Shown: piece by piece, positions 16,107 through 58,763 of the stretch
How the letters are laid out: each line of letters starts with the position of its first letter
Numbering within the stretch: the stretch's first letter is position 1
Source of the DNA: Rufibacter immobilis
GTDB taxonomy: Bacteria; Bacteroidota; Bacteroidia; Cytophagales; Hymenobacteraceae
Length of the DNA: 64,000 nt
NCBI RefSeq assembly: GCF_003721565.1
Contig: NZ_RJJE01000017.1
Coordinates: 434,001 to 498,000, forward strand
Direction: 5' to 3'
Position numbers and translations under genes: made by a program
Notes under the pieces: model-generated
Told to the model about the DNA's origin: nothing
Seen by the model: the letters and a program-made list of their open reading frames with translations, nothing else
Databases searched by the model: none

Positions 16107-16152
16107 TTTCCGTTTTGGGCCTGTTTTTCAGAAATCAGGCCCAAAACGGAAA
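16107..16152. repeat. Palindromic repeat copy 1 (variant)
   Basis: 17-bp arms TTTCCGTTTTGGGCCTG and complement, loop about 12 nt. The core GTTTAGGGGC is changed to GTTTTGGGCC with matching changes in the other arm. It lies between hsdS and the next gene. A longer reading frame starting at 16084 merely reads through it. Confidence 0.85.
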
Positions 16153-16245
16153 TATTTCCCCGGCATCGTTTCCTTCTTTCAGGCGGTTTTCTACCATCTC
16201 GCTATCTTCAATACCCGTAAATCCTTTATTTCAAAGTTCCCGTAC

Positions 16246-17202
16246 ATGGCACCGCTTTCACTGTTTCACAAACTAGAGCTGCATTATTTCTTCACAGATA
16301 ACTCCCACACCATGGATGCCGCTGTCCGGAACAAGTGCGAGGCAGAATTATTAGCCGTAGCCAGTGAGATAGCCGCCATTCTGGGCATCAAAATAAAGCT
16401 GGAAACTGAGCCTTATAGAGAGGGCGGCTTAAAGGAGAAGTTCAGAATCATTACCAAAAACCGGTTTCTGTCTGGTATTCTGGCCTCCATTATAGGTGGG
16501 GTTATTACCGCGGTGGTGTCTCACCAACTCAATTCAGACACTGATCTAGACGAACTGCAAAAGCAGAAGCTGCGGCTTGAAATAAAGAAACTGGAACAGG
16601 AGGTGAATGAGTTTAACCGGGCCCATGCCACGCTAGAAGTGGCCAAAGCGGCAGAGACCCTCAGTAACTACAGCTATAAAATTGTCAAGCATAAATCTAA
16701 TTTCTACAAGACCTTACAGCACTATTCAAAAGTAACCCACGTCTCCTTTACCAGACTGAATGAGCAGGATGAGGAAATAGGCCAGCCAAAGGTGCTCCAG
16801 AAGAAAGACTTCGGTCAGTTTATTTTAGATACAGATGAATTGCCCTCGGTACTGGATGAGCAGGCCCAGATTGAAATCATCTCGCCCGTGCTCAGCACCG
16901 GGCCCTACAAATGGAAAGGCTTTTACGCCGCCACCGGTGAACCCATAGATTTCTACATGAAAGACGAGGACTTCAAAAGAGACATCATCCAGAAGGCCGT
17001 CTCCTTCAGAAGCGGTAGCCGCATAGACTGCCGCTTAGAAGTAAAAAGAAAACTCTCTGAGACAGGGTTGGTCATCCATTCTTCCTACGCAGTTTTAACC
17101 GTACTCAGCGTACAAGACGGCCAGGCCACCGTTGAAACCCCGCAGGGCAAGAAGCTCAAAAAAGAGAAAGAGTTACTCAAGAACCAGCTGGCCTTGTTTT
17201 AA
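16246..17202 (+). CDS. Hypothetical protein with one membrane segment and coiled coil
   Basis: 318 residues from the ATG at 16246. The frame is open back to 16084, but that part translates the intergenic palindrome, so the later Met is chosen. Residues about 1-75 are soluble. A glycine-rich hydrophobic segment (FLSGILASIIGGVITAVV) lies at about 78-95, followed by a coiled coil (LDELQKQKLRLEIKKLEQEV) and a soluble C-terminal domain of about 200 residues. No family is recognised. It is the first of three unknown genes trailing the hsd operon, each set off by a palindrome copy. Confidence 0.7.
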   Translation: MAPLSLFHKLELHYFFTDNSHTMDAAVRNKCEAELLAVASEIAAILGIKIKLETEPYREGGLKEKFRIITKNRFLSGILASIIGGVITAVVSHQLNSDTDLDELQKQKLRLEIKKLEQEVNEFNRAHATLEVAKAAETLSNYSYKIVKHKSNFYKTLQHYSKVTHVSFTRLNEQDEEIGQPKVLQKKDFGQFILDTDELPSVLDEQAQIEIISPVLSTGPYKWKGFYAATGEPIDFYMKDEDFKRDIIQKAVSFRSGSRIDCRLEVKRKLSETGLVIHSSYAVLTVLSVQDGQATVETPQGKKLKKEKELLKNQLALF

Positions 17203-17228
17203 ACCTTCATCCCATTAACCTCTTTTCT

Positions 17229-17265
17229 GTTTTGGGCTAGTTTTCTGAAAAACAGGCCCAAAACG
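17229..17265. repeat. Palindromic repeat copy 2 (degenerate variant)
   Basis: GTTTTGGGC and its complement with mismatches in the inner stem. Related to copy 1. Located between two tandem hypothetical genes. Confidence 0.7.
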
Positions 17266-17307
17266 CCCCTGAGATTTCTCTGTGCGCAGAGAACTGAGCA
17301 ACCTTTT

Positions 17308-17664
17308 ATGATGGCATTTGAATTCTTTTTGGGTGGCTACGGCCGAAGCAACTTTTGGGTGCGCCTGCAAGATGGTTACTTGCATTGCGCAGAAGGCATG
17401 GGGCCTTACGTAGAGCAGGAGAAAACTGTCTCCATCACAGACCGACCCGTCTGGCAAAATTTGGTGGTCTTTCTGGAGAACTGCCGCTGGAAGAAGAAGT
17501 ATGTTGAGATGATCTGTGATGGCACCCAATGGGAGCTGAACTGGCAAACCCCGCAGCAAAAACTCAAAAGCTACGGGTCTAACCATTACCCCGCAGACTT
17601 TGACCAGTTTCTGATTTTACTCAATGCCTGCCTCCTAGAAGCAGGATTTACCATTAACCAGTAA
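17308..17664 (+). CDS. Hypothetical protein (118 aa)
   Basis: 118 residues, soluble, aromatic-rich (FEFFLGGYGRSNFWVRL at the N-terminus, then DFDQFLILLNACLLEAGF near the end). A second Met follows the first, so the start may be one codon later. No domain is recognised. It is flanked by palindrome copies 2 and 3 and lies in the direction of the hsd operon. Nothing in the sequence shows its role. Confidence 0.65.
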   Translation: MMAFEFFLGGYGRSNFWVRLQDGYLHCAEGMGPYVEQEKTVSITDRPVWQNLVVFLENCRWKKKYVEMICDGTQWELNWQTPQQKLKSYGSNHYPADFDQFLILLNACLLEAGFTINQ

Positions 17665-17678
17665 AACGGTAGTTGCCG

Positions 17679-17720
17679 TGCGTTTAGAGCCTGTTTTTCA
17701 GAAAACAGGCTCTAAACGCA
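17679..17720. repeat. Palindromic repeat copy 3
   Basis: Perfect 19-bp arms (17679-17697 and 17702-17720), TGCGTTTAGAGCCTGTTTT with complement. AGAGCC replaces AGGGGC in both arms. Confidence 0.9.
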
Positions 17721-17744
17721 ATTTAATTTCAATTACAAATTACC

Positions 17745-19067
17745 ATGTCTCATCAACAAGAAGCAGACCTGCTAGAATATTTCAGACAATACAAACTCTT
17801 AGAAGAAAAGGGAGGTCCTGAACAGGACGGAGATCTATTTGAAGAAGTCCTTGCCAAAGAAGAAGAGATCCTGCAATCGTTTGGCTTACCGCCTGCTCTG
17901 AAGCACCTCAAGCTCCTGCACAAACTGGCTAACCGGAAATCTGTAACCGTTGCAGTTCTTCAGAAAACCATAGCCGCCCTACAGAAAGCCGCTGAGGCCC
18001 ATCTGTCAGGTCCGGTCCTCACCGACCTGGAACTCCTGCAGAAAGCCAAAGAAGAAGAACTCAGCCCCTATGACATTCTGCCGGAACTAGGGATCATCAC
18101 CCACACGTACCCGATCTTCTTGATGGAGGTGGCTCTGAATTTTGTTCATCCGCAGGCTATTCTGGATGAGTTCTACGCCCTTAAGCGATTAGACTGCTAC
18201 GGAGAGTTGTATCAGCTAAAAAGCAAGCACCCCAAATCCTTTAAGCGCACCAAGCTCTACAAGCAACTAAAGCCTTACCTCAAGTTCATAGACCAATATG
18301 TGCGCTATAACCCAGATGAGCCTGTGTTTATAGAGGATTGGGTAGAGGAGGAGGTGCTGGATATAGCTGAAGGTCTGACTTATAAAGAAGACATGGCGAA
18401 ACCCTATGACAGCGGCCCAGCCAGTCTCTTTGATGAGCCAGCACCGGCAAAAGCCCCCGCGGCTTGGAACCCAAAGTACACCGTACTCACCGACTCTGTA
18501 GTCATAGAAGAAATCATGTTCAGCCGAGATTCAGGGGTAACCGTCTCCGGTCATTTAGCGCAATACTACCGGCCCACCCGCCTGATGCTGGGCTTTGAGT
18601 TTGATCAGTTGCTGGAAGTCATTCAGGTTTATCGGGCAGATGGGCAAGATGTGCTGCTCTATTTTAACAAGAACCGCCAACAAGTAGCCGGAGATGAGCC
18701 TGTTATTTTGAACCTGAAAGATAAATTAGGAAAGGAATTATGCTTGGACCAACACTACTTCAAGATATACAAATCTGAGTCGCTGGACCGGGAAGGCAAT
18801 GCTCTCCCTATGGAAGAGGAATTTTACATAGTGGAGGAAGTGCTTGAGAAAGCCAAACATGACCAACAAGAGGTTCAACAAGCCAAAGGAGAACTACATG
18901 GCCTCTTCCATCATGTAAGAAACCATTACTATACCTATCTTAACGACCTACGCAGCGGTATGAGTGACGCACAGGCACGCAAGGAGAATGGAATAGATGA
19001 CTACGTGAAGTTTGAGTTGGCCCGATTGCTCTATACAATAGACAAGCACGGCGGGAAGATCGATTAA
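17745..19067 (+). CDS. Hypothetical protein (440 aa)
   Basis: 440 residues, soluble, no signal peptide. The N-terminal 210 residues are helical. A short low-complexity linker (PAPAKAPAAW, about 230-240) separates a C-terminal part with mixed strands and a charged helix near 385-400. No family or catalytic motif is recognised. It is the last of three unknown genes downstream of the hsd operon; 80 nt separate it from the previous one. The C-terminal palindrome copy 4 closes the convergent pair with the peptidase gene. Confidence 0.7.
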   Translation: MSHQQEADLLEYFRQYKLLEEKGGPEQDGDLFEEVLAKEEEILQSFGLPPALKHLKLLHKLANRKSVTVAVLQKTIAALQKAAEAHLSGPVLTDLELLQKAKEEELSPYDILPELGIITHTYPIFLMEVALNFVHPQAILDEFYALKRLDCYGELYQLKSKHPKSFKRTKLYKQLKPYLKFIDQYVRYNPDEPVFIEDWVEEEVLDIAEGLTYKEDMAKPYDSGPASLFDEPAPAKAPAAWNPKYTVLTDSVVIEEIMFSRDSGVTVSGHLAQYYRPTRLMLGFEFDQLLEVIQVYRADGQDVLLYFNKNRQQVAGDEPVILNLKDKLGKELCLDQHYFKIYKSESLDREGNALPMEEEFYIVEEVLEKAKHDQQEVQQAKGELHGLFHHVRNHYYTYLNDLRSGMSDAQARKENGIDDYVKFELARLLYTIDKHGGKID

Positions 19068-19188
19068 GTTTATTTGTCTGGTCTTTGTGCTAGGGTAAGG
19101 TTCTATACAAATAATATGCTGTTGTAGTTTTATGACCAGATAGACAATTATCTGTTCATAAAAACGAGCCCATCAAAACCCAAAAAGA

Positions 19189-19236
19189 AAAAGCGATTAG
19201 GGGCTGTTTTTCCAAAAACAGCCCCTAATCGCTTTT
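19189..19236. repeat. Palindromic repeat copy 4, likely bidirectional terminator
   Basis: Perfect 23-bp arms starting AAAAGCG and ending CGCTTTT with a 2-nt loop. GATTAGGGGC replaces GTTTAGGGGC with compensation. It lies between convergent genes, and the A4/T4 ends suit termination in both directions. Confidence 0.9.
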
Positions 19237-19274
19237 ATAGTTATCGCCTAATTAGCGAAGTTCAGTACAGTACT

Positions 19275-20861
19275 TTAGTCTAAACCGCCTCTGCGGGTGG
19301 GCTTGTTCTGGCTGGGCCAGGTGCCGGGTTGGCCAGTTCTGCCGTTCACCGGCAACACGCTTTTCTCGCGTGAGGTGGTGGTGGGGTCTTCGCTGGCCAT
19401 GTAGGCAAGGATGGCGGTTAAGATGGCGTTGCTGCGCACATCGTCAAATGCGATCTTGTCATACGTGTCGCGGTTGGTGTGCCAGGTGTAGTTGCCGTAA
19501 GACCAGCCCAGGGAACTGAGCGAAAACGCAGGAGCACCTGCGGCCACAAACGAAGCATGGTCAGACCCGCCGCCGCCCGGCATGCCCGGGAAGTTGGTCT
19601 GGATCTGGTTTCTGATCTCGGCGGGCACCTTGGCCAACCAACGGTTGAGGTATTCATAGGAATGCAGGAAGCCGGAGCCGGATAAATTCACCACGCGACC
19701 GGTACCGTTGTCCTGGTTAAATACTGCCTGAATTTTCTGCACAATCTCGGGGTGGTCTTCCACAAACGCGCGGGAACCGTTCAAGCCTTGCTCTTCGCTG
19801 CCCCAGTGGCCCACCAGAATGGTACGCTTCGGGTTAGGGTAGATTTTCTTCAGGATGCGCATAGCTTCCATCATCACCAGCGTGCCGGTTCCGTTGTCGG
19901 TGGCACCGGTGGCTCCGTCCCAGGAATCGAAGTGTGCCGAAAGGATCACGTACTCATCCGGTTTCTGGGTGCCTTTGATCTCCGCGATGGTATTGTAGGT
20001 AGGAACTACGCCGCGCTCCTTAGACTCGGCCTGGATGGCGAGTTTGGGTTTCTGGCCCGAGGCGGTGAGGCGATACACCAAGCCGTAATCTTCCAGGGAA
20101 AGGTCAACGGTAGGAATCTTTTTGGTGTAGGCGCTGAAAATCTTGTTCACGCCAAAACCCGCCGACCAGTTAGACATCACAATACCGGCGGCACCGGCTT
20201 TTTCCAGGGCAACCGGAAGGGTGCGGGCGGTATAGCCGGTTTTGCTCATGCGTTGGCGCCAGGCTTCGGTCTGGGCGGTGCGCTCGGCCTTCATTTTCTC
20301 AAAAGAGGCCGCGGTGGCAAATTCCTGCCAGTTGTAGTCGGGGCGGCCGGTGGGCTGGGGCATGGAGATGAGCACCAGTTTGCCTTTCACCGTAGGCAGC
20401 CACTTCTGGAAGGCCACAGAATCGGCCACATCGGCTAGAATAATGGTTTCGGCGGTCACGCCTTTGCCTTTGGTGCTGGGGCTCCAGGCCAGTTGCATGC
20501 CTTCCAGAGAACGTAGGCGCGGGTGCACCAGGTCAATGTGGGAGATGCCTCTCTGCCAGCCGCGCCACTCGCCCCACTTCTCGTTGCGGGCGCTGATGCC
20601 CCAGCCTTGGTACTTGGCCACGGCCCAGTCATTGGCCTGCTGCATCTGCGGGCTACCTACCAGGCGCGGACCAATCTGGTCCATAAGCTCGTGGCCCAGG
20701 CTTTCCAGTTGGGAATTTTGAGTGGCTTCCTTCACAATGGCTTCCACTATGGGGTCTTTGGTTTGGGCAAGGCCCACCTGCGCTGAGAAGAGGAGGGACA
20801 GCAACAGGAGCTTTGGCGTTCGTTTGTTCGCCAGTCGGGGAGGGTGTAGTAAACTTTTCAT
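19275..20861 (-). CDS. Secreted M28-family zinc metallopeptidase with PA insert
   Basis: 528 residues. Signal peptide about 1-32 (LLLLSLLFSAQVGLAQ). A PA-type domain is inserted at about 130-275. The catalytic domain has the M28 di-zinc ligands and catalytic acid: H310 and D312 (AHFDSWDGA), D322, E356/E357 (GSEEQG), D384 (NQDNGTG) and H435 (GSDHASF). It removes N-terminal residues from peptides outside the cytoplasm. Its 5' side is separated from the thioesterase gene by palindrome copy 5. Confidence 0.92.
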   Translation of the reverse strand: MKSLLHPPRLANKRTPKLLLLSLLFSAQVGLAQTKDPIVEAIVKEATQNSQLESLGHELMDQIGPRLVGSPQMQQANDWAVAKYQGWGISARNEKWGEWRGWQRGISHIDLVHPRLRSLEGMQLAWSPSTKGKGVTAETIILADVADSVAFQKWLPTVKGKLVLISMPQPTGRPDYNWQEFATAASFEKMKAERTAQTEAWRQRMSKTGYTARTLPVALEKAGAAGIVMSNWSAGFGVNKIFSAYTKKIPTVDLSLEDYGLVYRLTASGQKPKLAIQAESKERGVVPTYNTIAEIKGTQKPDEYVILSAHFDSWDGATGATDNGTGTLVMMEAMRILKKIYPNPKRTILVGHWGSEEQGLNGSRAFVEDHPEIVQKIQAVFNQDNGTGRVVNLSGSGFLHSYEYLNRWLAKVPAEIRNQIQTNFPGMPGGGGSDHASFVAAGAPAFSLSSLGWSYGNYTWHTNRDTYDKIAFDDVRSNAILTAILAYMASEDPTTTSREKSVLPVNGRTGQPGTWPSQNKPTRRGGLD

Positions 20862-20922
20862 GCCCCTAAATTAGGAAAGCTATGAAACATTGAAACCAAA
20901 GGGCCCAAATTAAAGGGGGAGT

Positions 20923-20968
20923 TTTGCGTTTAGGGGCTGTTTTTGGAAAAAGAGCCCCTAAACGCAAA
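20923..20968. repeat. Palindromic repeat copy 5
   Basis: TTTGCGTTTAGGGGCT and complement, with mismatches only next to the loop (CTG against GAG). It lies between tandem minus-strand genes, just after the thioesterase stop. Confidence 0.9.
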
Positions 20969-20971
20969 GGC

Positions 20972-21406
20972 TTATTCTTCCAGCACGAAATCCTCTGCGC
21001 GGGGTAAGGTCATGAATTTCTGGGCCAGGTCTTCGGGCAGCGCCCCCAGCTTGCGCTTGAACAGGTCAATCCAGGCGCCGTCTACGTGAATGATGGCCGC
21101 CTTCACGCCGTCGCCGCGGTAGAGTTCATGCCTGATGGACCAGCGGGAGCCGTCGGGCCGGGACTTGCTCAGCACCGAGTGGATTTTGACGGTGTCATTG
21201 ATGCCCACTTCGCGCAGGTATTGCAATTCTTCCCGGAACAGGATGGGCCCCAGGTGCAGCTTCTGGAACGCCTTCACATCCAGCCCCAGGCTGTCTAACA
21301 TGGAAATACGGGCCTGGGCCGCGAAATCGGCGTAAGCCGAATGGCGCAGGTGCATGTTGGCATCTACCTGTGCCCAAATGACGTGCCCTTCATAAACAAT
21401 GCTCAT
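20972..21406 (-). CDS. Acyl-CoA thioesterase, 4HBT/YbgC-like hotdog
   Basis: 144 residues from the ATG at 21406. The longer frame to 21478 adds 24 residues with no conserved content. Hotdog-fold signature: VDANMHLRHSAYADFAAQAR with Asp14-Asn16-His18 in the active-site helix region, and REELQYLREVGINDTV in the sheet. It hydrolyses acyl-CoA thioesters in the cytoplasm; substrate length cannot be read from sequence. It stands upstream of the peptidase gene but is separated by a palindrome, so co-transcription is doubtful. Confidence 0.85.
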   Translation of the reverse strand: MSIVYEGHVIWAQVDANMHLRHSAYADFAAQARISMLDSLGLDVKAFQKLHLGPILFREELQYLREVGINDTVKIHSVLSKSRPDGSRWSIRHELYRGDGVKAAIIHVDGAWIDLFKRKLGALPEDLAQKFMTLPRAEDFVLEE

Positions 21407-21811
21407 AGTTGTAGGTCTTAAGTGATGGGTGCTGGCCGTACCAAATAAGAAGTACAGACTAAGAAGTACAGACAACACGCGTAATCAAAGATACGGCAAA
21501 CGGTAGTACGTGAGAAAATCCCTTTTAGCGGCCAAGCCGGCCAAGGGGTTGCATGGAGCGGCGGGTAGAGAAAAGGGGAGACTGCCGGGCACAAGGGAAC
21601 AAAGGCGGCTTTGGCCGAATGTGAAGCACTTGTACCCCTGCCGGTAGCAGCCAAGACAGCGCCCGCCATTGAGTTTTTTGTCTGATTTAAAAGCGATTAG
21701 CAACAACGGCTTTAGCCCCTGAAACTTTCAAGAGGAAAAAAAGTAAATAAATGGCTTTTTCTATATCCGTTTTAACCTAATTTGAGTAAAATACCTCAAA
21801 AATGACCTCCC
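21407..21811. other. Intergenic region before glycogen synthase
   Basis: Divergent promoter region for the thioesterase and glycogen synthase. A 14-bp tandem duplication (AAGAAGTACAGACT at 21447-21460, then one mismatch at 21461-21474) is the only structure seen. No gene is supported. Confidence 0.5.
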
Positions 21812-23608
21812 ATGCAATATAAGTCTTCTGCCTCGCCGCATCTTCTGGAAATAGCCTGGGAAGCGTGTAACCAAGTAGGTGGTATCTACACGGTGATCCG
21901 CTCCAAAGTACCCGCCATGATTGAATACTGGGGAGACCAGTACTGTCTTGTTGGGCCTTACTTCCCCCAGCAGGCCGCCAATGAGTTTGAGCCTACAGAT
22001 GATTATTCAGATGTATACGGGCAGGCGGTGCTGGAGCTGCGGGCCCAGGGCGTGGAGTGCTATTACGGCACCTGGTTGGTGACGGGGCGGCCGCGCATTG
22101 TGCTTATCAATCCGTTCAGTGCGTTTAACCAATTGGGGGAGATCAAGTATTTCCTGTGGGAGAACCACCGGATTCCTACTTCCAACGAAGACCTTTTAAA
22201 CCAGGTGCTGGCGTTTGGGCAGCAGGTGAAGCGGTTCATCTCCATCTTAGCCCAAAAGGCGCAGGTGGTGGCGCACTTCCACGAGTGGATGGTGGGCTCA
22301 CCCATCCCTGATCTGCGGCGCGAACAGGTGCCCGTGAAGATTGTGTTCACTACCCACGCCACCTTGCTGGGCCGCTACCTGGCCATGAACGACCCCAACT
22401 TCTATGACCAGCTCACCTCCGTAGACTGGCAGAAAGAGGCGAGGCATTTCAATATTGAACCGGCGGTTTCCATAGAGCGGGCGGCGGCCCACGGAGCCCA
22501 CGTGTTCACCACGGTGAGCGAGGTAACGGTGCGGGAATGTATCTACCTGCTGGACCGGATTCCGGACACGGTATTGCCCAACGGCCTCAACATCCGGCGG
22601 TTCACGGCCATGCACGAGTTCCAGAACCTGCACTTAACGTACAAGAAACGCATCCATCGGTTTGTGATGGGGCACTTCTTCCAGAGTTTCCCCTTTGATC
22701 TGGAGAAGACGGTTTACTTCTTCACCTCGGGCCGGTTTGAGTACCGGAACAAAGGCTTTGACCTTACCCTGGAAGCCCTGGCCCGCCTGAACTACCGCAT
22801 GAAGCAAGCCAAGAGCGACATGACGGTGGTGATGTTCTTCGTGACCAAGCAGCCTTTCTATTCCATCAACCCGGGGGTGTTGCACTCCAAGGCGCTCATG
22901 GAGGAGATTCAGGAGACCTGCGAGGCCATCAAAGACCAGATAGGGGAGCGGCTGTTCTATGACGCGGCCACCAGTTCAGACCACAAGCTGCCCCAGATCA
23001 ACGATTTCGTGGACGATTACTGGAAACTGCGTTACCGCCGTACCATCCAGTCCTGGAAAACGCACCAGTTACCGCCGGTGGTCACGCATAACCTGGTCAA
23101 CGATCAGTCAGACGAAATCCTGCATTTTCTGCGGAGTTCCAACCTGGTGAACAACGCCGATGACCGGGTGAAAATAGTGTATCACCCAGACTTTATCTCG
23201 CCCACCAACCCGCTGTTCGGGATGGAGTACGGACAGTTTGTGCGGGGTTGCCATCTGGGTATTTTCCCGAGCTACTATGAGCCGTGGGGCTATACGCCGC
23301 TGGAATGCGTGGCCAGCGGTATACCGGCAGTGACCAGTGATCTGTCTGGTTTCGGGGATTACGTGAAGAAGCACATCAAGAAATACAGCGACAAAGGCAT
23401 CTACGTGATTGACCGCCATGAGCGGGGCTTTGATGAATCTGCGGAGCAGCTCGCCGACCACCTGCTGGATTACGTGGAAATGAACCGCCGGGAGCGTATT
23501 TCCCAACGTAACCGTGTGGAAGGCCTTTCTGAGATGTTTGACTGGAAGAAACTGCTGGTGCATTATGAGCGGGCCTATCAACTGGCGCTCAGTACCAGCC
23601 AAGAATAA
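21812..23608 (+). CDS. Glycogen synthase, GT3 (eukaryote-type) family
   Basis: 598 residues. The N-terminus has VGGIYTVIRSK in the sugar-nucleotide loop, then HFHEWM, FTTHATLLGRY, TVSEVT and PNGLNI. The C-terminal Rossmann half has FFTSGRFEYRNKGFDL and EPWGYTPLECVASGIPAVTS, with the paired acidic residue of the donor site. This is the GSY/GT3 pattern known from animals and fungi and from Bacteroidota, not the usual bacterial GT5 GlgA. It extends alpha-1,4-glucan from a nucleotide-glucose. It probably works with the branching enzyme at 27942. Confidence 0.93.
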   Translation: MQYKSSASPHLLEIAWEACNQVGGIYTVIRSKVPAMIEYWGDQYCLVGPYFPQQAANEFEPTDDYSDVYGQAVLELRAQGVECYYGTWLVTGRPRIVLINPFSAFNQLGEIKYFLWENHRIPTSNEDLLNQVLAFGQQVKRFISILAQKAQVVAHFHEWMVGSPIPDLRREQVPVKIVFTTHATLLGRYLAMNDPNFYDQLTSVDWQKEARHFNIEPAVSIERAAAHGAHVFTTVSEVTVRECIYLLDRIPDTVLPNGLNIRRFTAMHEFQNLHLTYKKRIHRFVMGHFFQSFPFDLEKTVYFFTSGRFEYRNKGFDLTLEALARLNYRMKQAKSDMTVVMFFVTKQPFYSINPGVLHSKALMEEIQETCEAIKDQIGERLFYDAATSSDHKLPQINDFVDDYWKLRYRRTIQSWKTHQLPPVVTHNLVNDQSDEILHFLRSSNLVNNADDRVKIVYHPDFISPTNPLFGMEYGQFVRGCHLGIFPSYYEPWGYTPLECVASGIPAVTSDLSGFGDYVKKHIKKYSDKGIYVIDRHERGFDESAEQLADHLLDYVEMNRRERISQRNRVEGLSEMFDWKKLLVHYERAYQLALSTSQE

Positions 23609-23650
23609 AGAACTTCACTCTTCTTTACCTAAGCGAGAGGGACCATAAAC

Positions 23651-23718
23651 TAAAAGAGGAGTTTGCGTTTAGGGGCTGTTTTTCCAAAAACAGCCCCTAA
23701 ACGCAAACTCCTCTTTTA
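23651..23718. repeat. Palindromic repeat copy 6, 33-bp perfect arms
   Basis: Arms 23651-23683 and 23686-23718 are perfectly complementary with a CC loop. The core is extended by copy-specific sequence (TAAAAGAGGAGTTTG). Located between convergent genes; it should terminate both. Confidence 0.95.
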
Positions 23719-27751: not shown

Positions 27752-27825
27752 AACTATAAAATCTCTCTTTGCCAGGTCTTGAGTAAAGACTAGCAAGAAT
27801 TTTTCTTCTTAAAAGGCTTACCCCC

Positions 27826-27877
27826 AAAGAAAAGGCCGCTGCGATAATACCGCAGCGGCCTTTTCTTTGGTTTTTTT
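27826..27877 (+). terminator. Rho-independent terminator
   Basis: Perfect 18-bp stem (AAAGAAAAGGCCGCTGCG and complement) at 27826-27843 and 27851-27868, then seven Ts. Ends the GT4 transcript. Confidence 0.9.
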
Positions 27878-27888: not shown

Positions 27889-27938
27889 AGTTTGCGTTTA
27901 GGGGCTCTTTTTCCAAAAACAGCCCCTAAACGCAAACT
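27889..27938. repeat. Palindromic repeat copy 7
   Basis: AGTTTGCGTTTAGGGGCT and complement. The inner stem has a CTC/CAG mismatch. It sits between convergent GT4 and branching-enzyme genes, following an ordinary terminator. Confidence 0.9.
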
Positions 27939-37433: not shown

Positions 37434-37491
37434 GATCGCCCTGCGTTTAGGGGCCGTTTTCCCAAAAACGGCCCCTAAACGCAGGGCGATC
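37434..37491. repeat. Palindromic repeat copy 8
   Basis: About 27-bp arms with copy-specific ends GATCGCCCTG. GGGGCCG replaces GGGGCTG in both arms. Between convergent genes. Confidence 0.95.
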
Positions 37492-38133: not shown

Positions 38134-38179
38134 TTTCCGTTTAGGGGCTGTTTTTCCAAAAACAGCCCCTAAACGGAAA
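38134..38179. repeat. Palindromic repeat copy 9
   Basis: Perfect 22-bp arms TTTCCGTTTAGGGGCTG... with loop CC. Between tandem minus-strand SRPBCC genes. Confidence 0.95.
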
Positions 38180-38800: not shown

Positions 38801-38867
38801 GGCTATTTTTTTTAGTGATGAAATAATTTGAAGACTGGGTGCTGTGCTTTATGCGCCGCGGTGGCTG

Positions 38868-38904
38868 CTTTGGCCCTGTTTTCAGAAAAAGAGCCCCTAA
38901 ACAG
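38868..38904. repeat. Palindromic repeat copy 10 (degenerate)
   Basis: GAGCCCCTAAACA arm intact; the other arm is altered (TTTGGCCCTG). This is the only copy lying between divergent gene starts. Confidence 0.6.
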
Positions 38905-45780: not shown

Positions 45781-45828
45781 CCTCCCGTTTAGGGGCTCTT
45801 TTTCCAAAAAGAGCCCCTAAACGGGAGG
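45781..45828. repeat. Palindromic repeat copy 11
   Basis: Perfect 23-bp arms CCTCCCGTTTAGGGGCTC..., loop CC; GGGGCTC/GAGCCCC compensated. Between convergent genes. Confidence 0.95.
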
Positions 45829-48955: not shown

Positions 48956-48965
48956 AAGAGAAACT

Positions 48966-50993: not shown

Positions 50994-51059
50994 AAAAGCG
51001 CGGCTCCCGTTTAGGGGCTCTTTTTCCAAAAAGAGCCCCTAAACGGGAGCCGCGCTTTT
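50994..51059. repeat. Palindromic repeat copy 12, 32-bp perfect arms
   Basis: Arms 50994-51025 and 51028-51059, loop CC, copy-specific ends AAAAGCGCGGCTCC. Between convergent genes; A4/T4 ends suit termination both ways. Confidence 0.95.
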
Positions 51060-51126: not shown

Positions 51127-51168
51127 TGCGTTTAGGAGCCGTTTTTGGAAAAACAGCCCCTAAACGCA
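51127..51168. repeat. Palindromic repeat copy 13
   Basis: TGCGTTTAGGAGC and complement, with one arm mutated (GGAGCC against CAGCCCC). Second copy in the same gap. Confidence 0.9.
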
Positions 51169-52008: not shown

Positions 52009-52051
52009 GGGAATTCAACCTAAGTTCCGCCTTTGGCTCTTTTTAGAAGCC

Positions 52052-52780
52052 TTAGAGCAATATCTGTGCGCAGACAAAGTCTGCAATTAAGATGGCAATG
52101 ACACTGTTGGTCACGGCGTTGGTACTGGCTTTCCCTACCTCCAGGGCCCCGCCAGAGGTAAAGTAGCCTTGGTAAGAAGAGATGGAAGAAATGAGGAATG
52201 CGAATACCACTGATTTAATCAACGCAAACGTAATGTTGTAGGGGATAAAATCAGACCGCAAACCGGTGATGTACTCCTGGCCGGAAAGCGCGCCAGACAA
52301 GCTCCCTGCCAAATAACCGCCCAGTATGGAAAGGAACATGGCCAAAATCACCAGCATGGGAAACACCAGCAACGATGCCAATATCTTTGGCGACACCAGA
52401 TAGGAGGAAGCGTTAATCCCCATCACCTCCAGGGCGTCTACCTGCTCCGTGATGCGCATGGTGCCCAGCCCGCCGGCAATGTTGGAGCCCACTTTCCCGG
52501 CCAGCACAATGGACGTGATGGTAGGAGCCAATTCCAAAATGGTCATTTCGCGCACCATAAACCCAATGGTAGATCTGGGGATAAGTGCGTTTGTGAGGTT
52601 ATAGGAGATCTGTACGCAAGTTACGGCCCCAATGAAGGTAGACACCACACCCACGATAAAGATGGAGTCAATGCCTATCAGGATGGCTTCGTCTATGGTT
52701 CTTTTGAATAAAATCCGGGGAGACTCACCTCGCTTGACAAGGCTAGACAGAAAGAGCAAAAATGCACCAAACGTTTTCAT
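52052..52780 (-). CDS. MlaE-like ABC permease
   Basis: 242 residues, about five to six helices. MlaE signature: TTFIGAVTCVQ-type loop, FMVREMTILELAPTITSIVLAGKVGSNIAGGLGTM and EQVDALEVMGINASSYLVSPK. No MCE substrate-binding gene is seen nearby. Transcribed before the ATPase. Confidence 0.93.
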   Translation of the reverse strand: MKTFGAFLLFLSSLVKRGESPRILFKRTIDEAILIGIDSIFIVGVVSTFIGAVTCVQISYNLTNALIPRSTIGFMVREMTILELAPTITSIVLAGKVGSNIAGGLGTMRITEQVDALEVMGINASSYLVSPKILASLLVFPMLVILAMFLSILGGYLAGSLSGALSGQEYITGLRSDFIPYNITFALIKSVVFAFLISSISSYQGYFTSGGALEVGKASTNAVTNSVIAILIADFVCAQILL

Positions 52781-52887
52781 GCAGTAGGTAAAAGGAATGT
52801 CAGGCAGAAAGGCCGCTATAGGTGTTGTGGGGCCATTCTTATTTCAAATGCCTATATTACGTTGAAAAAAGAAAAAACATCATTGCC

Positions 52888-53595
52888 ATGCAAAAATATA
52901 TAGTGGTAACGGGTGGCACCAAGGGCATTGGACGGGCCATCATTGACCGTTTCGCGGCCGAGGGCTTCCATATCATCACCTGCGCCCGGCAGGAGCAGGA
53001 CCTGGCTAAACTCAAGCTGGACATTGAGCGGGATTACACCTTCTCCAAAGTCTTCTACCTGGCCACCGACGTAAGCCAGGACGGCGAGGTGAAGCGGTTT
53101 CTGGAGTACATCCACTCGCTCAAAGTGAAGGTAGATGTGCTGGTGAACAACGCCGGTTTCTTCATCCCGGGCACCATCCATGACGAAAGCGACACCGTGC
53201 TGCGCGAGATGATCAATACCAACCTCTACAGCGCCTATGACCTCACCAAAGGCCTGGTGGGCGACATGATCAAACGCCGCGACGGCCACATTTTCACCAT
53301 CTGCTCCACGGCCAGCATTACCGCCTACACCAACGGCGGCTCCTACTGCATTGCCAAACACGCCCTCTACGGCATGACCCGCGTGCTGCGCGAAGAACTG
53401 AAACCACACAACATACGCGTCACGGCCGTGTTACCCGGTGCCACCTACACCGCCAGCTGGGAAGGCGTTGACCTCCCCAAAGACCGTTTCATGAAACCCG
53501 AAGACGTTGCCCAGGCCATCTGGAGCGCCCATTGTCTCTCTAAAAACTCGGTAGTGGAGGAGTTGTTGCTGAGGCCGCAGTTAGGTGATATTTAG
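52888..53595 (+). CDS. SDR-family oxidoreductase
   Basis: 235 residues from the ATG at 52888; the in-frame extension to 52822 is not conserved in type. Cofactor loop TGGTKGIG at 8-15, NNAG near 87, active-site Ser in CSTASIT and YCIAK, then PGATYTASW. Substrate unknown. It is the first of two neighbouring SDR genes with moderate similarity to each other. Confidence 0.9.
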   Translation: MQKYIVVTGGTKGIGRAIIDRFAAEGFHIITCARQEQDLAKLKLDIERDYTFSKVFYLATDVSQDGEVKRFLEYIHSLKVKVDVLVNNAGFFIPGTIHDESDTVLREMINTNLYSAYDLTKGLVGDMIKRRDGHIFTICSTASITAYTNGGSYCIAKHALYGMTRVLREELKPHNIRVTAVLPGATYTASWEGVDLPKDRFMKPEDVAQAIWSAHCLSKNSVVEELLLRPQLGDI

Positions 53596-53709
53596 TTTTA
53601 AATAGCGAATTCTGTTAAGCAAATAGCGTAAGAGATTTACATGTAAGTTGATGAAACGAACAAGTTAACTCGGGTGAAGGTAAGTGGAGTGAAGGTGTAA
53701 TTGAAGAAT

Positions 53710-53749
53710 CCGTTTAGCGGCTCTTTTTCTGAAATAGAGGCTAAAACAG
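53710..53749. repeat. Palindromic repeat copy 14 (degenerate)
   Basis: CCGTTTAGCGGCTCTTTTT with a poorly matched second arm. Between two SDR genes on the plus strand. Confidence 0.6.
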
Positions 53750-53866
53750 ATTGTCTTGAAAAAGAGTAAAAACCAGATACCCTAAAGCAGAGGGATTAGT
53801 GCCGGAGCAAGGATAGTTTCAGCTTAATATTCACTCTTTTCATTAAATTTGAGCAAATTCTAAAAT

Positions 53867-54580
53867 ATGGAACTAGAAGGAAAAGTAGTAGTCATTACCG
53901 GGGCCAGCAGCGGGATTGGTCTGGCTGCCGCCAAAATGTTGTTAGAGCTTGGCGCCACGGTAGTGAGCTGGAGCCGCTCGCGGCCCAAGATTTCCCACCC
54001 AGATTTCTATTTTTTTGAGTGTGACGTGCGCCATGAGCATTCGGTTTGGGCGGCGTATGAGCAGACCGAGGAGCGTTTGCGCCAGAACATCAGCGTGCTC
54101 ATCAACAACGCGGGACTGGGCATCCAGGGCGCATTGGATACCATGAGTCCCAAAGATTGGCACACCATGATGGACACCAACGTGAACGGCATTTTCTACT
54201 GTACCCGCTTGGTGTTGCCCGCCATGAAACGCCTGCGCGAAGGCCACATCATCAACATATCTTCCATTGCCGGTTTAATGGGCAGCGAGAACCTGACCGG
54301 TTACTGCGCCTCTAAGTTTGCCGTGCGTGGTCTGTCTGAGGCCCTGTACAAGGAAGTGCGCAACTACGGCGTGAAAGTGACCTGTATCTACCCGGGCTCC
54401 ACAGACACCAGCTTCTTTGACAACTTTGACGGAATCACGAACAAAGAGTACATGATGCAGCCCGAAGACATTGCCTCCACCATTGTGCATGCCCTGCAGT
54501 CGCCGCCTAATTACCACCAGGTAAACATTGAGGTACGGCCGCTCATGCCCAAAGGTCCAATGCCTACTAAAAAAGCCTAA
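53867..54580 (+). CDS. SDR-family oxidoreductase
   Basis: 237 residues. Cofactor loop TGASSGIG at 10-17, NNAG, Ser in INISSIAG and YCASK, then YPGSTDTSFF. Sequence resembles the sepiapterin/benzil-reductase-like SDR group. Followed after 8 nt by gldA; whether the two genes are linked is unknown. Confidence 0.9.
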   Translation: MELEGKVVVITGASSGIGLAAAKMLLELGATVVSWSRSRPKISHPDFYFFECDVRHEHSVWAAYEQTEERLRQNISVLINNAGLGIQGALDTMSPKDWHTMMDTNVNGIFYCTRLVLPAMKRLREGHIINISSIAGLMGSENLTGYCASKFAVRGLSEALYKEVRNYGVKVTCIYPGSTDTSFFDNFDGITNKEYMMQPEDIASTIVHALQSPPNYHQVNIEVRPLMPKGPMPTKKA

Positions 54581-54588
54581 GCCCTTCC

Positions 54589-55509
54589 ATGGGAATTGAA
54601 ATAAGAGACCTTACCAAAGTATACGGGCCGCAGGCTGCCGTAGACCACGTGTCGTTTACGGTGAATACCGGCGAGATTGTGGGCTTTCTGGGGCCTAACG
54701 GCGCGGGCAAATCCACTACCATGAAAATTGCCACCTGTTACCTGCCGCCCAGCAGCGGAACAGTGTTGGTGAACGGGCATGACGTGCTGGAGGAGCCCAA
54801 GGAAGTCCGCCGTCAGGTGGGTTATTTACCCGAGCATAATCCGCTGTACCTGGACATGTACGTGCGCGAGTACCTGCACTTCGTGGGTAAACTGCACGGC
54901 CTGGGCAGCAGCCAGGTGAAAGCCCGCACCGAGGAGATGATTTCCCTCTGCGGACTCACCCGGGAGCGGCACAAGAAAATCGGGGCTCTGTCTAAAGGGT
55001 ACCGGCAGCGGGTAGGGTTGGCGCAGGCCCTTATCCATGATCCGCAGGTGCTCATCCTGGACGAGCCCACCACCGGTCTGGACCCTAACCAGATAGTGGA
55101 GATCCGTCAGCTAATCAAGGAAGTGGGGCAGGCCAAAACCGTGCTCTTCTCCACCCACATCATGCAGGAAGTAAGCGCCCTCTGTGACCGCGTGCTCATC
55201 ATCAACCAAGGCAAACTGGTAGCCGACAGCCCCGTGGCCGAACTGAAAACCATGGGCCGGCAGGACACCAGAATCCTGGCTGAATTTGAAGCCGATATCA
55301 ATACTGACCTGCTGCTGTCTTTGCCGGGGGTGCAGCGGGTGGAGCCCGCGGGGCCGCTCAAGTACAGAATCATCGCCTCGGCTAAAACAGACCTGCGTTC
55401 GGCTATTTTCAGGCTGGCCGGGGAACAGGGCTGGCCGTTGGTGGGGCTGCAGCAGGAAGAAAACTCTCTGGAGAAACTGTTCCAGGAACTGACCAAAGCA
55501 CTTAAGTAA
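54589..55509 (+). CDS. gldA: Gliding-motility ABC transporter ATPase
   Basis: 306 residues. Walker A GPNGAGKST, Q-loop PEHNPLY, signature LSKGYRQRVGLAQAL, Walker B LILDEPTTGLDP and H-loop STHIMQE. The C-terminal 90 residues follow the GldA layout. With GldF and GldG it forms a transporter required for gliding in Flavobacterium. It starts 8 nt after the SDR. Two palindromes separate it from gldF. Confidence 0.9.
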   Translation: MGIEIRDLTKVYGPQAAVDHVSFTVNTGEIVGFLGPNGAGKSTTMKIATCYLPPSSGTVLVNGHDVLEEPKEVRRQVGYLPEHNPLYLDMYVREYLHFVGKLHGLGSSQVKARTEEMISLCGLTRERHKKIGALSKGYRQRVGLAQALIHDPQVLILDEPTTGLDPNQIVEIRQLIKEVGQAKTVLFSTHIMQEVSALCDRVLIINQGKLVADSPVAELKTMGRQDTRILAEFEADINTDLLLSLPGVQRVEPAGPLKYRIIASAKTDLRSAIFRLAGEQGWPLVGLQQEENSLEKLFQELTKALK

Positions 55510-55511
55510 TG

Positions 55512-55555
55512 ATGCGTTTAGGGGCTCTTTTTTCAAAAAAAGCTCCTAAACGTAT
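55512..55555. repeat. Palindromic repeat copy 15
   Basis: ATGCGTTTAGGGGCTC with complement, one mismatch pair (GGGG against CTCC). In the gldA-gldF gap. Confidence 0.9.
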
Positions 55556-55631
55556 GGAGTCTTCTTCGTACGCTCAACAATTTACTAGCAAAAGCTTGAG
55601 TGTATGCGAAAGTAGCTCACGTTTAACCATT

Positions 55632-55669
55632 CGTTTAGGGGCTGTTTTCCCGAAAACAGCCCCTAAACG
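55632..55669. repeat. Palindromic repeat copy 16
   Basis: 17-bp arms CGTTTAGGGGCTGTTTT and complement, loop about 4 nt. Second copy in the gldA-gldF gap. Confidence 0.95.
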
Positions 55670-55730
55670 GGAATACATCACCAAACCAAAAATCTTGATA
55701 CTTGTGTCTTGATGCTTGTATCCAATTTAT

Positions 55731-56459
55731 ATGTTGGCAATTCTCTCAAAAGAATTTAATTCCTACCTCAACTCCCTCATTGGCTACATTGTCATAGGGG
55801 TGTTTCTGGTGGCTACGGGCCTGTTCATGTGGGTGTTCCCAGACAGCAGCGTGCTGGACTACGGCTACGCCGATCTGCAATCTGTGTTTCTGCTGGCGCC
55901 CTGGCTGTTCCTGTTTCTGATTCCGGCCATCACCATGCGGGCCTTCGCCGAGGAGCGTAAAGGCGGCACCATGGAACTGCTGCTCACCAAACCGCTTTCA
56001 GACACGCAATTGCTGCTGGGTAAGTACTTCGCGTGTCTGTTGCTGGCGCTGTTCGCGCTGCTGCCGTCCTTGCTGTACTACGTGAGCGTGTACCAATTAG
56101 GCGACCCGGTGGGCAATATCGATTCTGCCGCGGTGGCCGGTTCTTACCTGGGGCTGGTGTTTCTGGCGGCGGTATTCGTGGCTATGGGAATTTTCGCCTC
56201 CTCGCTCACTGAGAACCAGATTGTGGCGTTTATCCTGGCCGTTTTCCTGTGTTACCTGGTGTACACGGGCTTTGATCTGCTGGCCTCTATTGACGCCTGG
56301 GGCACCGCTTCCTACTACATTGCGCAGCTGGGCATTTCCTATCACTACAGCTCCATCAGCAAAGGGTTGATTGACTCCCGTGATGTGCTGTATTTCCTGA
56401 GCGTAATCACTGTGATGTTATTGGGTACTAAACTGGTGTTGGAGAGCAGAAAATGGTAG
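55731..56459 (+). CDS. gldF: Gliding-motility ABC permease
   Basis: 242 residues from the ATG at 55731; an upstream TTG at 55716 is not favoured. Six predicted helices, ABC-2 type (LSKEFNSYLNSLIGYIVIGVFL; MRAFAEERKGGTMELLLTKPLSD). It overlaps gldG by 7 nt. Works with GldA and GldG. Confidence 0.92.
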   Translation: MLAILSKEFNSYLNSLIGYIVIGVFLVATGLFMWVFPDSSVLDYGYADLQSVFLLAPWLFLFLIPAITMRAFAEERKGGTMELLLTKPLSDTQLLLGKYFACLLLALFALLPSLLYYVSVYQLGDPVGNIDSAAVAGSYLGLVFLAAVFVAMGIFASSLTENQIVAFILAVFLCYLVYTGFDLLASIDAWGTASYYIAQLGISYHYSSISKGLIDSRDVLYFLSVITVMLLGTKLVLESRKW

Positions 56460-58156
56460 AGCAGACACAAAACCAGAAACCGGTGGTAGAAAGCCGTCGC
56501 CGGCAGGATTGGACTTTCTTTTTGGTGGCTGTGGGGCTGCTGCTGGTCCTCAACTTCGTGGCCAGCCGCTATTTCTTCCGCCTAGACCTCACCGAGGACA
56601 AGCGCTACACCATCTCAGAACAGACCAAGAACCTGCTGGGCAACCTGCAGGAACCGGTTCAGGTGACGGTGTACCTGGAAGGGGAGTTCCCGGCCGGGTT
56701 CCGGCGGCTCCAGAACAGCACCCGCGAGATGCTGGAGGAATTCAGGCTGTACTCAGACGGTCGGGTGCAGTACCAATTTGTAGACCCCAGTGCAAATACC
56801 AATGAGCAGGCGCGTAACCAATTTTACACCCAACTGGCCCAGAAAGGACTGCAGCCCACCAACTTATTTGCCCAGGAAGGCGACAAGAAGGTGGAGAAAA
56901 TTGTGTTTCCGGGAGCGCTTATCTCGGCGGGCAATAAGGAAACGGCCGCTACTTTGCTTAAAGGAAGCCAGGCCGCCGCGCCCGAAGAACGCCTGAACCA
57001 GTCTATTGAAGGGCTGGAATATGAATTGGCCTCGTCCATCAGGAATGTAGCCTCCACCAGCGCCGGAAGAATTGGGGTGTTGCAGGGCCACGGCGAACTG
57101 TGGTTGCCGCAGGCCGCCGATTTTCTGGGTACGCTCTCTGAATACTACACCGTGAACCGGGTAGACCTTTCGCAGGTGCCTGACCTGAACAATTTCAATC
57201 TGGTGGTGCTCATGAAGCCCACGCAGCCTTTCTCTGAGCTGGACAAATACAAAATGGACCAGTTCCTGATCAGGGGCGGGAAAATGCTGCTCCTACTGGA
57301 CGGCGTGCGGGCTTCTCTGGACAGCATTAGTGAGCAGGGGGCCGTGGCTTTTCCGTATGAACTGAACCTGCAGGACATGCTGTTCCGCTACGGCGTGCGC
57401 GTGAATCCAGATCTGGTGCAGGACCTCAACGCCAGCTTCATTCCTATGGTAACGGGCTATATGGGCAATCAGCCGCAGACCCAGCTGGTGCCGTGGCGCT
57501 ATTACCCGCTTATCTCCAACTTCAGCTCTTTGCCACTCACCCGCAATCTGGACGCGGTGCAGACAAGATTTGTGAGTTCCCTGGACACTGTGAAAGCCGT
57601 GGGCATCAGGAAATCGCCTTTGCTCTGGACCTCCCAATACTCCCGCAAGCGCGAATCGCCGGTTTCCATTTCCCTCAACGACCCGCGCGTAGACCGTGAC
57701 CCCAGACTATTTAGCCAAAACGCCATTCCGGTGGGGTACTTGCTGGAAGGAAAATTCCAGTCGGTGTTCAAGAACCGGCCGGTGCCCGCAGGTTCCAACA
57801 TTCCGTTCCAAGCGGAGGGAAAGGCATCCCAGATCGTGATTTTCTCTGACGGAGACTTAGGGGCTAATGATGTGGATCCCCGCAACGGCCGTCCGTTGGA
57901 GTTAGGCTTTGACCGCTTCACCCGCTCCCGCTTCGCCAACAAGGAGCTGCTCAAGAACGTAGCCGATTACCTGCTGGACGAGAAAGGGCTGATTGAATTG
58001 CGCGGAAAGGAAATCAAACTTCGGCCGCTGGACAAAGCTAAACTGCGCGAAGAACGCACAAAGTGGCAAGCTATCAATTTGGGCATTCCGCTGGTCCTGT
58101 TGCTTCTCTTTGGGGTAACTAAGTTCTGGTTGCGCAAACGGAAATATGCCCGCTAA
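56453..58156 (+). CDS. gldG: Gliding-motility ABC auxiliary protein
   Basis: 567 residues. N-terminal membrane helix (about 23-42), large extracytoplasmic region beginning RRLQNSTREMLEEF, and a C-terminal anchor (LGIPLVLLLLFGVTKFWLRKRK). Pattern of the GldG/DUF4350-like ABC auxiliary subunit. Reads in the gldF-gldG overlap, and overlaps the next gene by 11 nt. Confidence 0.92.
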   Translation: MVEQTQNQKPVVESRRRQDWTFFLVAVGLLLVLNFVASRYFFRLDLTEDKRYTISEQTKNLLGNLQEPVQVTVYLEGEFPAGFRRLQNSTREMLEEFRLYSDGRVQYQFVDPSANTNEQARNQFYTQLAQKGLQPTNLFAQEGDKKVEKIVFPGALISAGNKETAATLLKGSQAAAPEERLNQSIEGLEYELASSIRNVASTSAGRIGVLQGHGELWLPQAADFLGTLSEYYTVNRVDLSQVPDLNNFNLVVLMKPTQPFSELDKYKMDQFLIRGGKMLLLLDGVRASLDSISEQGAVAFPYELNLQDMLFRYGVRVNPDLVQDLNASFIPMVTGYMGNQPQTQLVPWRYYPLISNFSSLPLTRNLDAVQTRFVSSLDTVKAVGIRKSPLLWTSQYSRKRESPVSISLNDPRVDRDPRLFSQNAIPVGYLLEGKFQSVFKNRPVPAGSNIPFQAEGKASQIVIFSDGDLGANDVDPRNGRPLELGFDRFTRSRFANKELLKNVADYLLDEKGLIELRGKEIKLRPLDKAKLREERTKWQAINLGIPLVLLLLFGVTKFWLRKRKYAR

Positions 58157-58571
58157 ACTCAGAATAGAAGAAATTACCGCCGCCCAGACCTGGCCCATCC
58201 GCCAGGAAAGCATGTGGCCCAATGAACCGCTGGCCTTTGTACAGCTCCCCGAAGATGAATCAGGCGTGCATTTCGGGGCTTTCGTGGGGGAGGAGCTAAT
58301 CTCTGTTATTTCTCTGTTTCTGGAAGGGGAGCAGGCGCAATTCAGGAAATTTGCCACAAGGCCGGCTTTTCAGAGACAGGGAATAGGGCAACGGTTGCTC
58401 CAGCATGTATTTACTTATGCAGCAACCCACCACGTTTCTTCAGTGTGGTGCCATGCCCGCATAACCGCGCAGAGTTTCTATCAGAATGCAGGAATGGAAG
58501 TAGTGGGAGAGCCCTTCCAGAAAAACGGGCTTATGTATGTACGCATGCAAAAATTTCTTACCAATGGATGA
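58146..58571 (+). CDS. GNAT-family N-acetyltransferase
   Basis: 141 residues. Motif A RKFATRPAFQRQGIGQRLL with QxxGxG, and motif B FYQNAGMEVVG. Acetyl-CoA donor; acceptor unknown. Overlaps gldG, so likely co-transcribed. Confidence 0.92.
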   Translation: MPAKLRIEEITAAQTWPIRQESMWPNEPLAFVQLPEDESGVHFGAFVGEELISVISLFLEGEQAQFRKFATRPAFQRQGIGQRLLQHVFTYAATHHVSSVWCHARITAQSFYQNAGMEVVGEPFQKNGLMYVRMQKFLTNG

Positions 58572-58602
58572 CGTCTCTCCTTGTCTGTTGCCCTTCCCAT
58601 GG

Positions 58603-58642
58603 TGTTTAGCGCCTGTTTTTCAAAAAAGAGCCGCTAAACGCA
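58603..58642. repeat. Palindromic repeat copy 17 (variant)
   Basis: TGTTTAGCGCCTGTTTTT with a changed complementary arm. Between convergent genes; paired with copy 18. Confidence 0.7.
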
Positions 58643-58703
58643 TATCATTACCACGGAAGCGCTAGAGCATTTTCTGTTATAGTTGACCCGCAGTAGTCTT
58701 AAA

Positions 58704-58763
58704 AGCAGTGGTCCCGTTTAGGGGCCGTTTTTCTAAAAACGGCCCCTAAACGGGACCACTGCT
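58704..58763. repeat. Palindromic repeat copy 18, 29-bp perfect arms
   Basis: Arms 58704-58732 and 58735-58763, copy-specific ends AGCAGTGGTCC; GGGGCCG compensated. Between GNAT and LacI genes. Confidence 0.95.

Follow-up and report, generated by a model that had tools for sequence, protein, structure and literature searches.

Repeated elements in a 64-kb window of Rufibacter immobilis

The window analysed here is a stretch of 64,000 nt of Rufibacter immobilis DNA, situated inside contig C10 of the 4.77-Mb genome, and it holds 18 copies of a 36-bp element with the fixed skeleton GTTT-N9-TTT-N4-AAA-N9-AAAC, made of two inverted arms (relatives are labelled G001-G015 and so on; the R. immobilis genome, G000, is called 'own'). 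A combined scan for skeletons and arms returned 19 rows, one of which (58123-58158: 7 of 18 pairs, in a gene and without skeleton) was dropped. The 18 that were kept span positions 16112-58751, in line with the approximately 18 covarying palindromes that had been described from the letters of the window only (below: the sequence-only reading), and two of them (38867 and 53712) are asymmetric, i.e. one of their arms is degenerate. The motif GTTTAGGGGC occurs 30 times in the window when at most one mismatch is allowed, against a mean of 5.17 and a maximum of 11 in 100 shuffles. The copies are listed below with a strand for the asymmetric ones; extension is the length in bp of the paired flank, and the last line gives a hairpin that does not belong to the family.

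16112..16147, 36-bp element: relatives-type arms GTTTTGGGCC, 15 pairs, 5-bp extension, inverted repeat 16107-16152
17229..17264, 36-bp element: 14 pairs, unextended
17682..17717, palindromic 36-bp element: AGAGCC/GGCTCT, extension 3
19195..19230, palindromic 36-bp element: GATTAGG/CCTAATC, extension 6, convergent genes either side
20928..20963, palindromic 36-bp element (site X): extension 5, several relatives with a similar gap length
23667..23702, palindromic 36-bp element (site Y): 16-bp private extension, 33-bp stem at 23651-23718
27896..27931, 36-bp element: extension 7, convergent gap
37445..37480, palindromic 36-bp element: extension 11 (37434-37491), convergent gap
38139..38174, palindromic 36-bp element: extension 5, codirectional gap
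38867..38902, minus strand, asymmetric element: one species-dialect arm, the other degenerate, 11 pairs, divergent gap
45787..45822, palindromic 36-bp element: extension 6 (45781-45828)
51009..51044, palindromic 36-bp element: 15-bp private extension, 32-bp stem at 50994-51059, convergent gap
51130..51165, 36-bp element: extension 3, second one in the convergent gap of the 51009 element
53712..53747, plus strand, asymmetric element: GTTTAGCGGCTC arm, 7 of 18 pairs, weak predicted fold
55516..55551, 36-bp element: 6 bp past the stop codon of an ABC-transporter ATPase gene (54589-55509)
55633..55668, palindromic 36-bp element: extension 1, second one in the gap of the 55516 element
58604..58639, 36-bp element: unextended, convergent gap
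58716..58751, palindromic 36-bp element: 12-bp private extension, 29-bp stem at 58704-58763, convergent gap
27824..27870, ordinary A-tract/T-tract terminator-like hairpin outside the family, adjoining an element

The three long private stems of 33, 32 and 29 bp were all found to be perfect in an inverted-repeat search. Genes were called with a home-made codon-score script that missed low-GC (guanine plus cytosine) genes at 40.8-45.4 kb, and some gene contexts, including 'in gene' and 'divergent' cases, are wrong owing to it; the element at 16112..16147, for instance, falls inside a TTG-start open reading frame (ORF) as called, and probably lies before the true start of that ORF.

No elements were found at 1-16 kb (GC 46.7%) or at 40-45.7 kb (GC 39.7%), the two blocks that the sequence-only reading had marked as empty, and the GC content of the remaining window is 50.7-51.7%. 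At the element density of the remaining window 9.2 copies would be expected in the two blocks, and the corresponding probability of finding none (~1e-4) overstates the case, since the blocks were chosen for being empty. When own DNA including the window was divided into 172 five-kb segments, element number correlated positively with GC (rho 0.43, P 6e-9), and a single element was all that the 8 segments below 45% GC held between them, which supports the earlier suggestion that the family is absent from acquired-looking DNA. Type I restriction genes lie at 9251-16075, in the first of the two empty low-GC blocks, and encode an HsdR-like protein (EcoEI_R_C), a PD-(D/E)XK_4 protein and an HsdS-like protein. 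The same block contains an inverted repeat of 27 bp (1081-1140), perfectly paired around a loop of 6 nt, which is outside the family. The protein encoded at 56453-58156 matches the Pfam family ABC_transp_aux, and we take it to be GldG-like; its relatives are 83-92% identical in ten Rufibacter/Sabulibacter records and the next ones at most 42%. Rfam gave no matches in the window at gathering scores.

Anatomy, arm independence and dialects of the element

The family extends far outside the window, a matter on which the sequence-only reading had staked its interpretation: the own genome contains 1309 strict skeletons and 818 sites that match the palindromic core with at most three mismatches (reversed control: 0). 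Strict skeletons numbered 186-1561 in each of 16 Rufibacter genomes and 0-3 in 134 genomes from five other genera of the taxonomic family (20 of the 134 had any), with 0-2 per genome for a reversed-skeleton control; a looser skeleton was found 0 times in four other genera (80-kb samples) and in two genomes of the order (40-kb samples). A literature search, to which subscription papers were mostly out of reach, found no description of these elements, and the main text of a REP (repetitive extragenic palindromic) survey, PMC12306157, does not contain 'Rufibacter', 'Hymenobacter' or 'Cytophag'.

Each arm is approximately 17 bp long (TTGC-GTTTAGSGGCYSTTTTT in R. immobilis), and the unit consists of two inverted arms at a fixed spacing. 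A span of exactly 36 bp was found for 180 of the 189 pairs of GTTTAGGGGC half-sites that have no more than two mismatches in total. The element detectors vary between the analyses (arm match or skeleton), hence the differing counts. In 864 kb of own DNA the intergenic GTTT-N-AAAC pairs peaked at a length of 36 (266 pairs), with 69 at length 35 and 4-44 at each of the other lengths between 26 and 47; of these, 42 (44 pairs) and 43 (28 pairs) stand out, perhaps reflecting that extended stems often have another GTTT upstream. In called genes the same count gave 44 at length 36 and 10-29 at other lengths. The AAAC partner end was present for 445 of the 463 arms that match at 16 or more of 17 positions, and the remaining 18 were, as read by eye, the same element with an altered partner end, so that solitary arms practically never occur. 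In the own sample 303 copies were intergenic (190 kb) vs 27 genic (674 kb; 0.04 per kb). The flank consensus ahead of GTTT, read from letter counts, is TTGC or TTCC, and the T-tract of the core is seen in the sequence to sit at the apex of the hairpin rather than 3' of the stem.

Arm matching in the 864 kb recovered 207 palindromic copies and 182 copies with a single consensus arm, 144 of which had a proper other end and a degenerate arm; these are the asymmetric copies, with the consensus TTGC-GTTTAG-S-GGCYSTTTTTC, then NAAATCAGGCCNAAAAC. Palindromic copies occupied 59, 39 and 17% of convergent, codirectional and divergent gaps (40-600 bp), respectively, and asymmetric copies 27, 22 and 20%, without orientation to the genes (34 sense, 38 antisense). 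Within palindromic copies the variable arm positions 6, 8 and 11 usually carry a G or a C, with no fixed order, which would suit a requirement for strong pairing more than for any one base. At some places in the own sample (for example L053 13826, L056 7055 and L089 5964) an ordinary terminator-like hairpin runs straight into the GTTT of an element; such abutting hairpins are a minority, at 12 of 702 element sides vs 2 control positions.

The two arms of an element vary independently unless the stem is extended. In unextended copies (at most 2 bp of paired flank, both arms consensus) identity at the 4 variable positions was 2.24 within vs 2.28 between elements (75 elements, P 0.71), and a second measure gave 0.567 vs 0.563 (67 elements). 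An arm correlation was likewise missing in divergent-gap copies and in the unextended copies of G012, G013, G006 and G005, with small samples of 10-16 each. Copies extended by at least 5 bp did covary (3.40 vs 2.84, 80 elements, equalled in 0 of 1000 shuffles), a contrast that was repeated in small G012 and G013 samples and was weaker in G005 (P 0.09), G006 having too few extended copies for the comparison. The matched arm changes pointed out in the sequence-only reading are consequently true covariation in the extended copies only; unextended arms resemble each other because both carry the same motif. Mismatches in palindromic copies at codirectional sites, a tally in which codirectional and convergent gaps are pooled (as they are for the extension frequencies below), comprised 46 G.U and 54 A.C, and from this near-equality it follows that conservation of the core does not serve the RNA of one particular strand. 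With G.U no commoner than A.C, selection acting on the core as transcribed RNA was rejected. Taking the missing arm correlation and the mismatch tally together, we read the core as two copies of a single arm motif and not as complementary strands under RNA selection.

The arm sequence differs between species. Dialect D1 (TTTAGGGGC core) had 818 copies in the own genome, 111 in G001 and 0-48 in 14 other members; D2 (GTTTTTGGCCTGTTTTC) had 568 in G013, 377 in G006, 277 in G001, 119 in G005, 22 in the own genome and 0-32 in the rest; and D3 (GTTTTNGGGCTCATTTC) had 1053 in G012 and at most 7 elsewhere. Several species fit none of the three well despite carrying 186-1325 skeletons. Exact D1-like and D2/D3-like patterns retrieved 0 stretches from viral contigs.

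The positions of the elements, on the other hand, are often shared. In orthologous gaps (at least 80 bp in the own genome) relatives carried an element in 39 of the 55 cases with an own element and in 3 of the 37 without, figures that are confounded by gap type since every convergent gap had an own element; for codirectional gaps alone they are 12 of 23 vs 0 of 8. Of the 10 genomes in which the gap of site X was found, 8, among them the own one, have it at 105-110 bp (G009 has 198 and G015 477), and the strict skeleton is present there in 4 of the 9 relatives as well as in the own genome; by eye we recognised diverged palindromes in G010 and G014, and only weak ones in G002 and G011. Sequence similarity follows the genome instead: for five gaps in the own genome, G005, G006, G012 and G013 (strict 36-bp copies only), 19 of 22 orthologous elements were nearer to non-orthologous copies of the same genome than to their orthologues (P 7e-6). 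Mean distances were 6.2 for same-genome copies, 9.7 for orthologues and 10.4 for random foreign copies, orthologues being slightly nearer than random foreign copies in 15 of the 22; random elements of the own genome and G012 differed at a mean of 11.6 of 36 positions. An element's position thus appears often to be old and its sequence to be local, which is concerted evolution.

Stem extension and terminator-like features

Of the 167 palindromic copies that lie in codirectional or convergent gaps 23% have an extension of at least 8 bp; none of the 21 palindromic copies in divergent gaps or of the 144 asymmetric copies does. Codirectional copies extended by at least 5 bp have, as a group, a T-rich tail (downstream T 132/320 vs upstream A 84/320, P 8e-5), which unextended codirectional copies do not (153 vs 142 of 528, P 0.49). 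Palindromic copies and ordinary terminators tend not to share a convergent gap (79 gaps, odds ratio 0.30, P 0.018), an avoidance not seen for asymmetric copies in such gaps (odds ratio 1.43, P 0.60). The predicted RNA folds of three extended copies were very stable (z -12.9 to -15.6), and that of an asymmetric window copy was ordinary (z -1.0; 27 of 200 shuffles at least as stable).

Site Y, in the gap between a glycogen synthase and a GH31 gene, shows strong covariation between species. An element-centred hairpin lies downstream of the glycogen synthase in 15 of 16 genomes (by eye; the G012 extension is weak), and in the 13 of 16 genomes compared, all of equal length there, 19 of 26 pairs were altered on both sides, with 81 such cells vs 25.4 in shuffled data (reached in 0 of 500); the comparison excluded G008 (34 bp) and G009 (35 bp) because of their length and G001 for its different hairpin. 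The proposal that the palindromes are terminators is in this way supported, as far as sequence features go, for the stem-extended subset (3' ends, covariation, T-rich tail), and is not supported for the family as a whole.

Interpretation and comparison with known systems

The explanation that we consider best, and to which we give about an even chance of being right, is a bipartite intergenic DNA element that is confined to the genus and has two layers: a site for a putative dimeric factor, with part of the copies exapted as terminators. In the first layer the elements, whose anatomy is observed directly, would serve as double-stranded sites for a putative sequence-specific dimeric protein; when the preference of such a factor shifts, the sites would follow in place, giving rise to dialects at orthologous positions. 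A dimeric DNA-binding factor would fit the fixed span, the obligatory pairing of arms, their independence and the dialects. In the second layer, palindromic copies at gene 3' ends would have acquired complementary flanks of their own and, taken as a group, a T-rich tail; such copies may act as transcription terminators, bidirectionally between convergent genes. The fuller account, in which a putative dimeric factor reads a bipartite intergenic mark, the sites are rewritten arm by arm in place and part of them double as bidirectional terminators, is tentative, and we hold it for rather doubtful. If true, dispersed regulatory DNA would here be evolving in concert without any need for transposition or uptake. 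The short dispersed repeats of bacteria are usually put down to mobility (REPs) or to DNA uptake (DNA uptake sequences, DUS, and uptake signal sequences, USS); here positions are often kept between species, the sequence is genome-specific, the arms vary separately and the REP transposase does not track the elements. The driver, be it a coevolving binding factor or a homogenising process, is testable in relatives that have different dialects at the same gene ends, and, with the DNA-level arms told apart from the extension of the stem, it can be seen how a DNA motif might become a set of terminators.

Several observations weigh against this explanation. Rewriting more than 1000 dispersed sites by selection only would be slow, and molecular drive could explain the homogenisation better. 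G003, G004 and G014 have 523-633 skeletons and few D1-D3 matches, so strong dialects are not universal in the genus. Unextended copies have a slight surplus of unlike arms (0.605 vs 0.635), and the numbers of copies with two, one and no consensus arms (183/93/27) come close to independence (174/111/18 expected) but mildly exceed it at the two extremes. On the side of termination, terminator avoidance is absent in codirectional gaps (odds ratio 0.77, P 0.79), extended codirectional copies have G.U (9) and A.C (11) mismatches at similar frequency where a one-strand terminator should favour G.U, and an unextended palindromic copy (55626-55675) also folds stably (z -6.5).

Of the alternatives, REP-like mobility, in which the palindromes are copied by a REP-associated tyrosine transposase (RAYT, TnpA-REP) or another transposase and each dialect is the current master copy of its species, seems unlikely to us. 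The elements do resemble REPs in being palindromic, intergenic, high in copy number and species-specific, and a RAYT, for which the sequence-only reading had proposed to look, is encoded in the own genome (C1:452655-453194, by profile search), with elements at 265 and 260 bp on its two sides. By our own comparison its length and HUH/Y motifs fit RAYT subclass 2.6 of PMC6006769, a Bacteroidetes subclass which, according to that paper, has atypical structures at its flanks that lack GT[AG]G and have copies elsewhere in the genome; this fit is the best argument for a REP system. RAYT-profile matches occur in 15 of 16 Rufibacter genomes, yet 24 RAYT-like ORFs (from 23 of 25 loci; L165 and L173 gave no ORF by motif) had an element within 500 bp in 8 of 24 cases on the 5' side and 7 of 24 on the 3' side, which is not above control genes (5'/3': 35%/49% of 499 own genes and 25%/36% of 205 genes of other species). 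G006, without a match to Pfam Y1_Tnp or the RAYT profile (E 0.001), nevertheless has 377 D2 copies and 607 skeletons; conversely, in other genera of the taxonomic family 8 of 9 genomes have matches to Y1_Tnp, a domain also found in IS200 transposases, and all 9 have only 0-3 skeletons. G013, whose dialect is a different one, has a RAYT that is 84% identical to the own RAYT. Target duplications of 3-9 bp did not exceed chance (offsets 0-5), and we ascribe the excess of 2-bp duplications in palindromic copies (92 of 207) to the conserved GC flank; the steady gap length at site X and the scarcity of elements in low-GC DNA also speak against colonisation by mobile copies. RAYT mobilisation of the elements, which had been put forward in the sequence-only reading, was not supported by the tests of neighbourhood and presence and was set aside.

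Two further RAYT loci may be mentioned. L166 (G013) and L164 (G012) encode very similar RAYTs with a near-identical D3-type element 280 and 1033 bp away, respectively, and the G013 copy may have been transferred and have kept the dialect of its donor (D3, that of G012). A second RAYT-like sequence of the own genome lies in pieces at G000:C10:127896-128430, with a D2-type element approximately 400 bp off (128826).

Homogenisation without transposition, by short-tract gene conversion between copies or by hairpin template switching, we regard as quite unlikely, even though the core is altered in place at positions that are retained (at site Y, as judged by eye, together with part of the extension), and although 19 of 22 elements follow the genome rather than the orthologue. 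Template switching within an element should equalise the arms everywhere, and the arms of unextended and divergent copies are uncorrelated, so that this process, also named in the sequence-only reading, is not supported as a general cause; long extensions are moreover lacking in divergent gaps, and conversion tracts would need to be ~36-44 bp long. That the elements are ordinary intrinsic terminators only, with stems of common lineage-specific sequence, would agree with the stable hairpins at 3' ends and the terminator-like sequence of extended copies, and is very unlikely in view of the numerous asymmetric copies (144, vs 207 palindromic, in 864 kb), which occur in divergent gaps about as often as in the other types, the unremarkable fold of the asymmetric window copy and the T-tract at the apex of the core. 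We give the least credence to a drive of the DNA-uptake type, with a species tag favoured in natural transformation and reused in terminators as in Neisseria and the Pasteurellaceae. It would explain why the elements have species dialects, as DUS have: in PMC3630211 and PMC1852404, DUS are described with per-species dialects and with inverted pairs at terminators. According to PMC3630211, however, they are short single motifs that are common inside genes, whereas our elements are rare there and their arms are practically never alone.

The known systems can be compared as follows. As in intrinsic terminators, the stem-extended subset of the elements has a stable predicted hairpin past stop codons and, as a group trend in its codirectional copies, a T-rich tail; unlike them, the family has a common 36-bp core, an apex T-tract and a large asymmetric part with low pairing. 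Neisseria DUS and Pasteurellaceae USS share with the elements the species dialects and the reuse of inverted pairs in terminators, and the distribution of DUS is reported to have been used for finding integrated foreign elements (PMC7371117); they differ from the elements, which are obligatory two-arm 36-bp units with no solitary arms and almost no genic copies. REPs and REPINs (paired REPs) with their RAYTs are similar in consisting of short palindromic intergenic repeats in hundreds of copies with species-specific sequence. In our case, by contrast, RAYT and elements are not linked by neighbourhood or presence, the flank consensus is without GT[AG]G (judged from letter counts, with no dedicated scan), the arms need not pair, and positions are common to species and changed in place.

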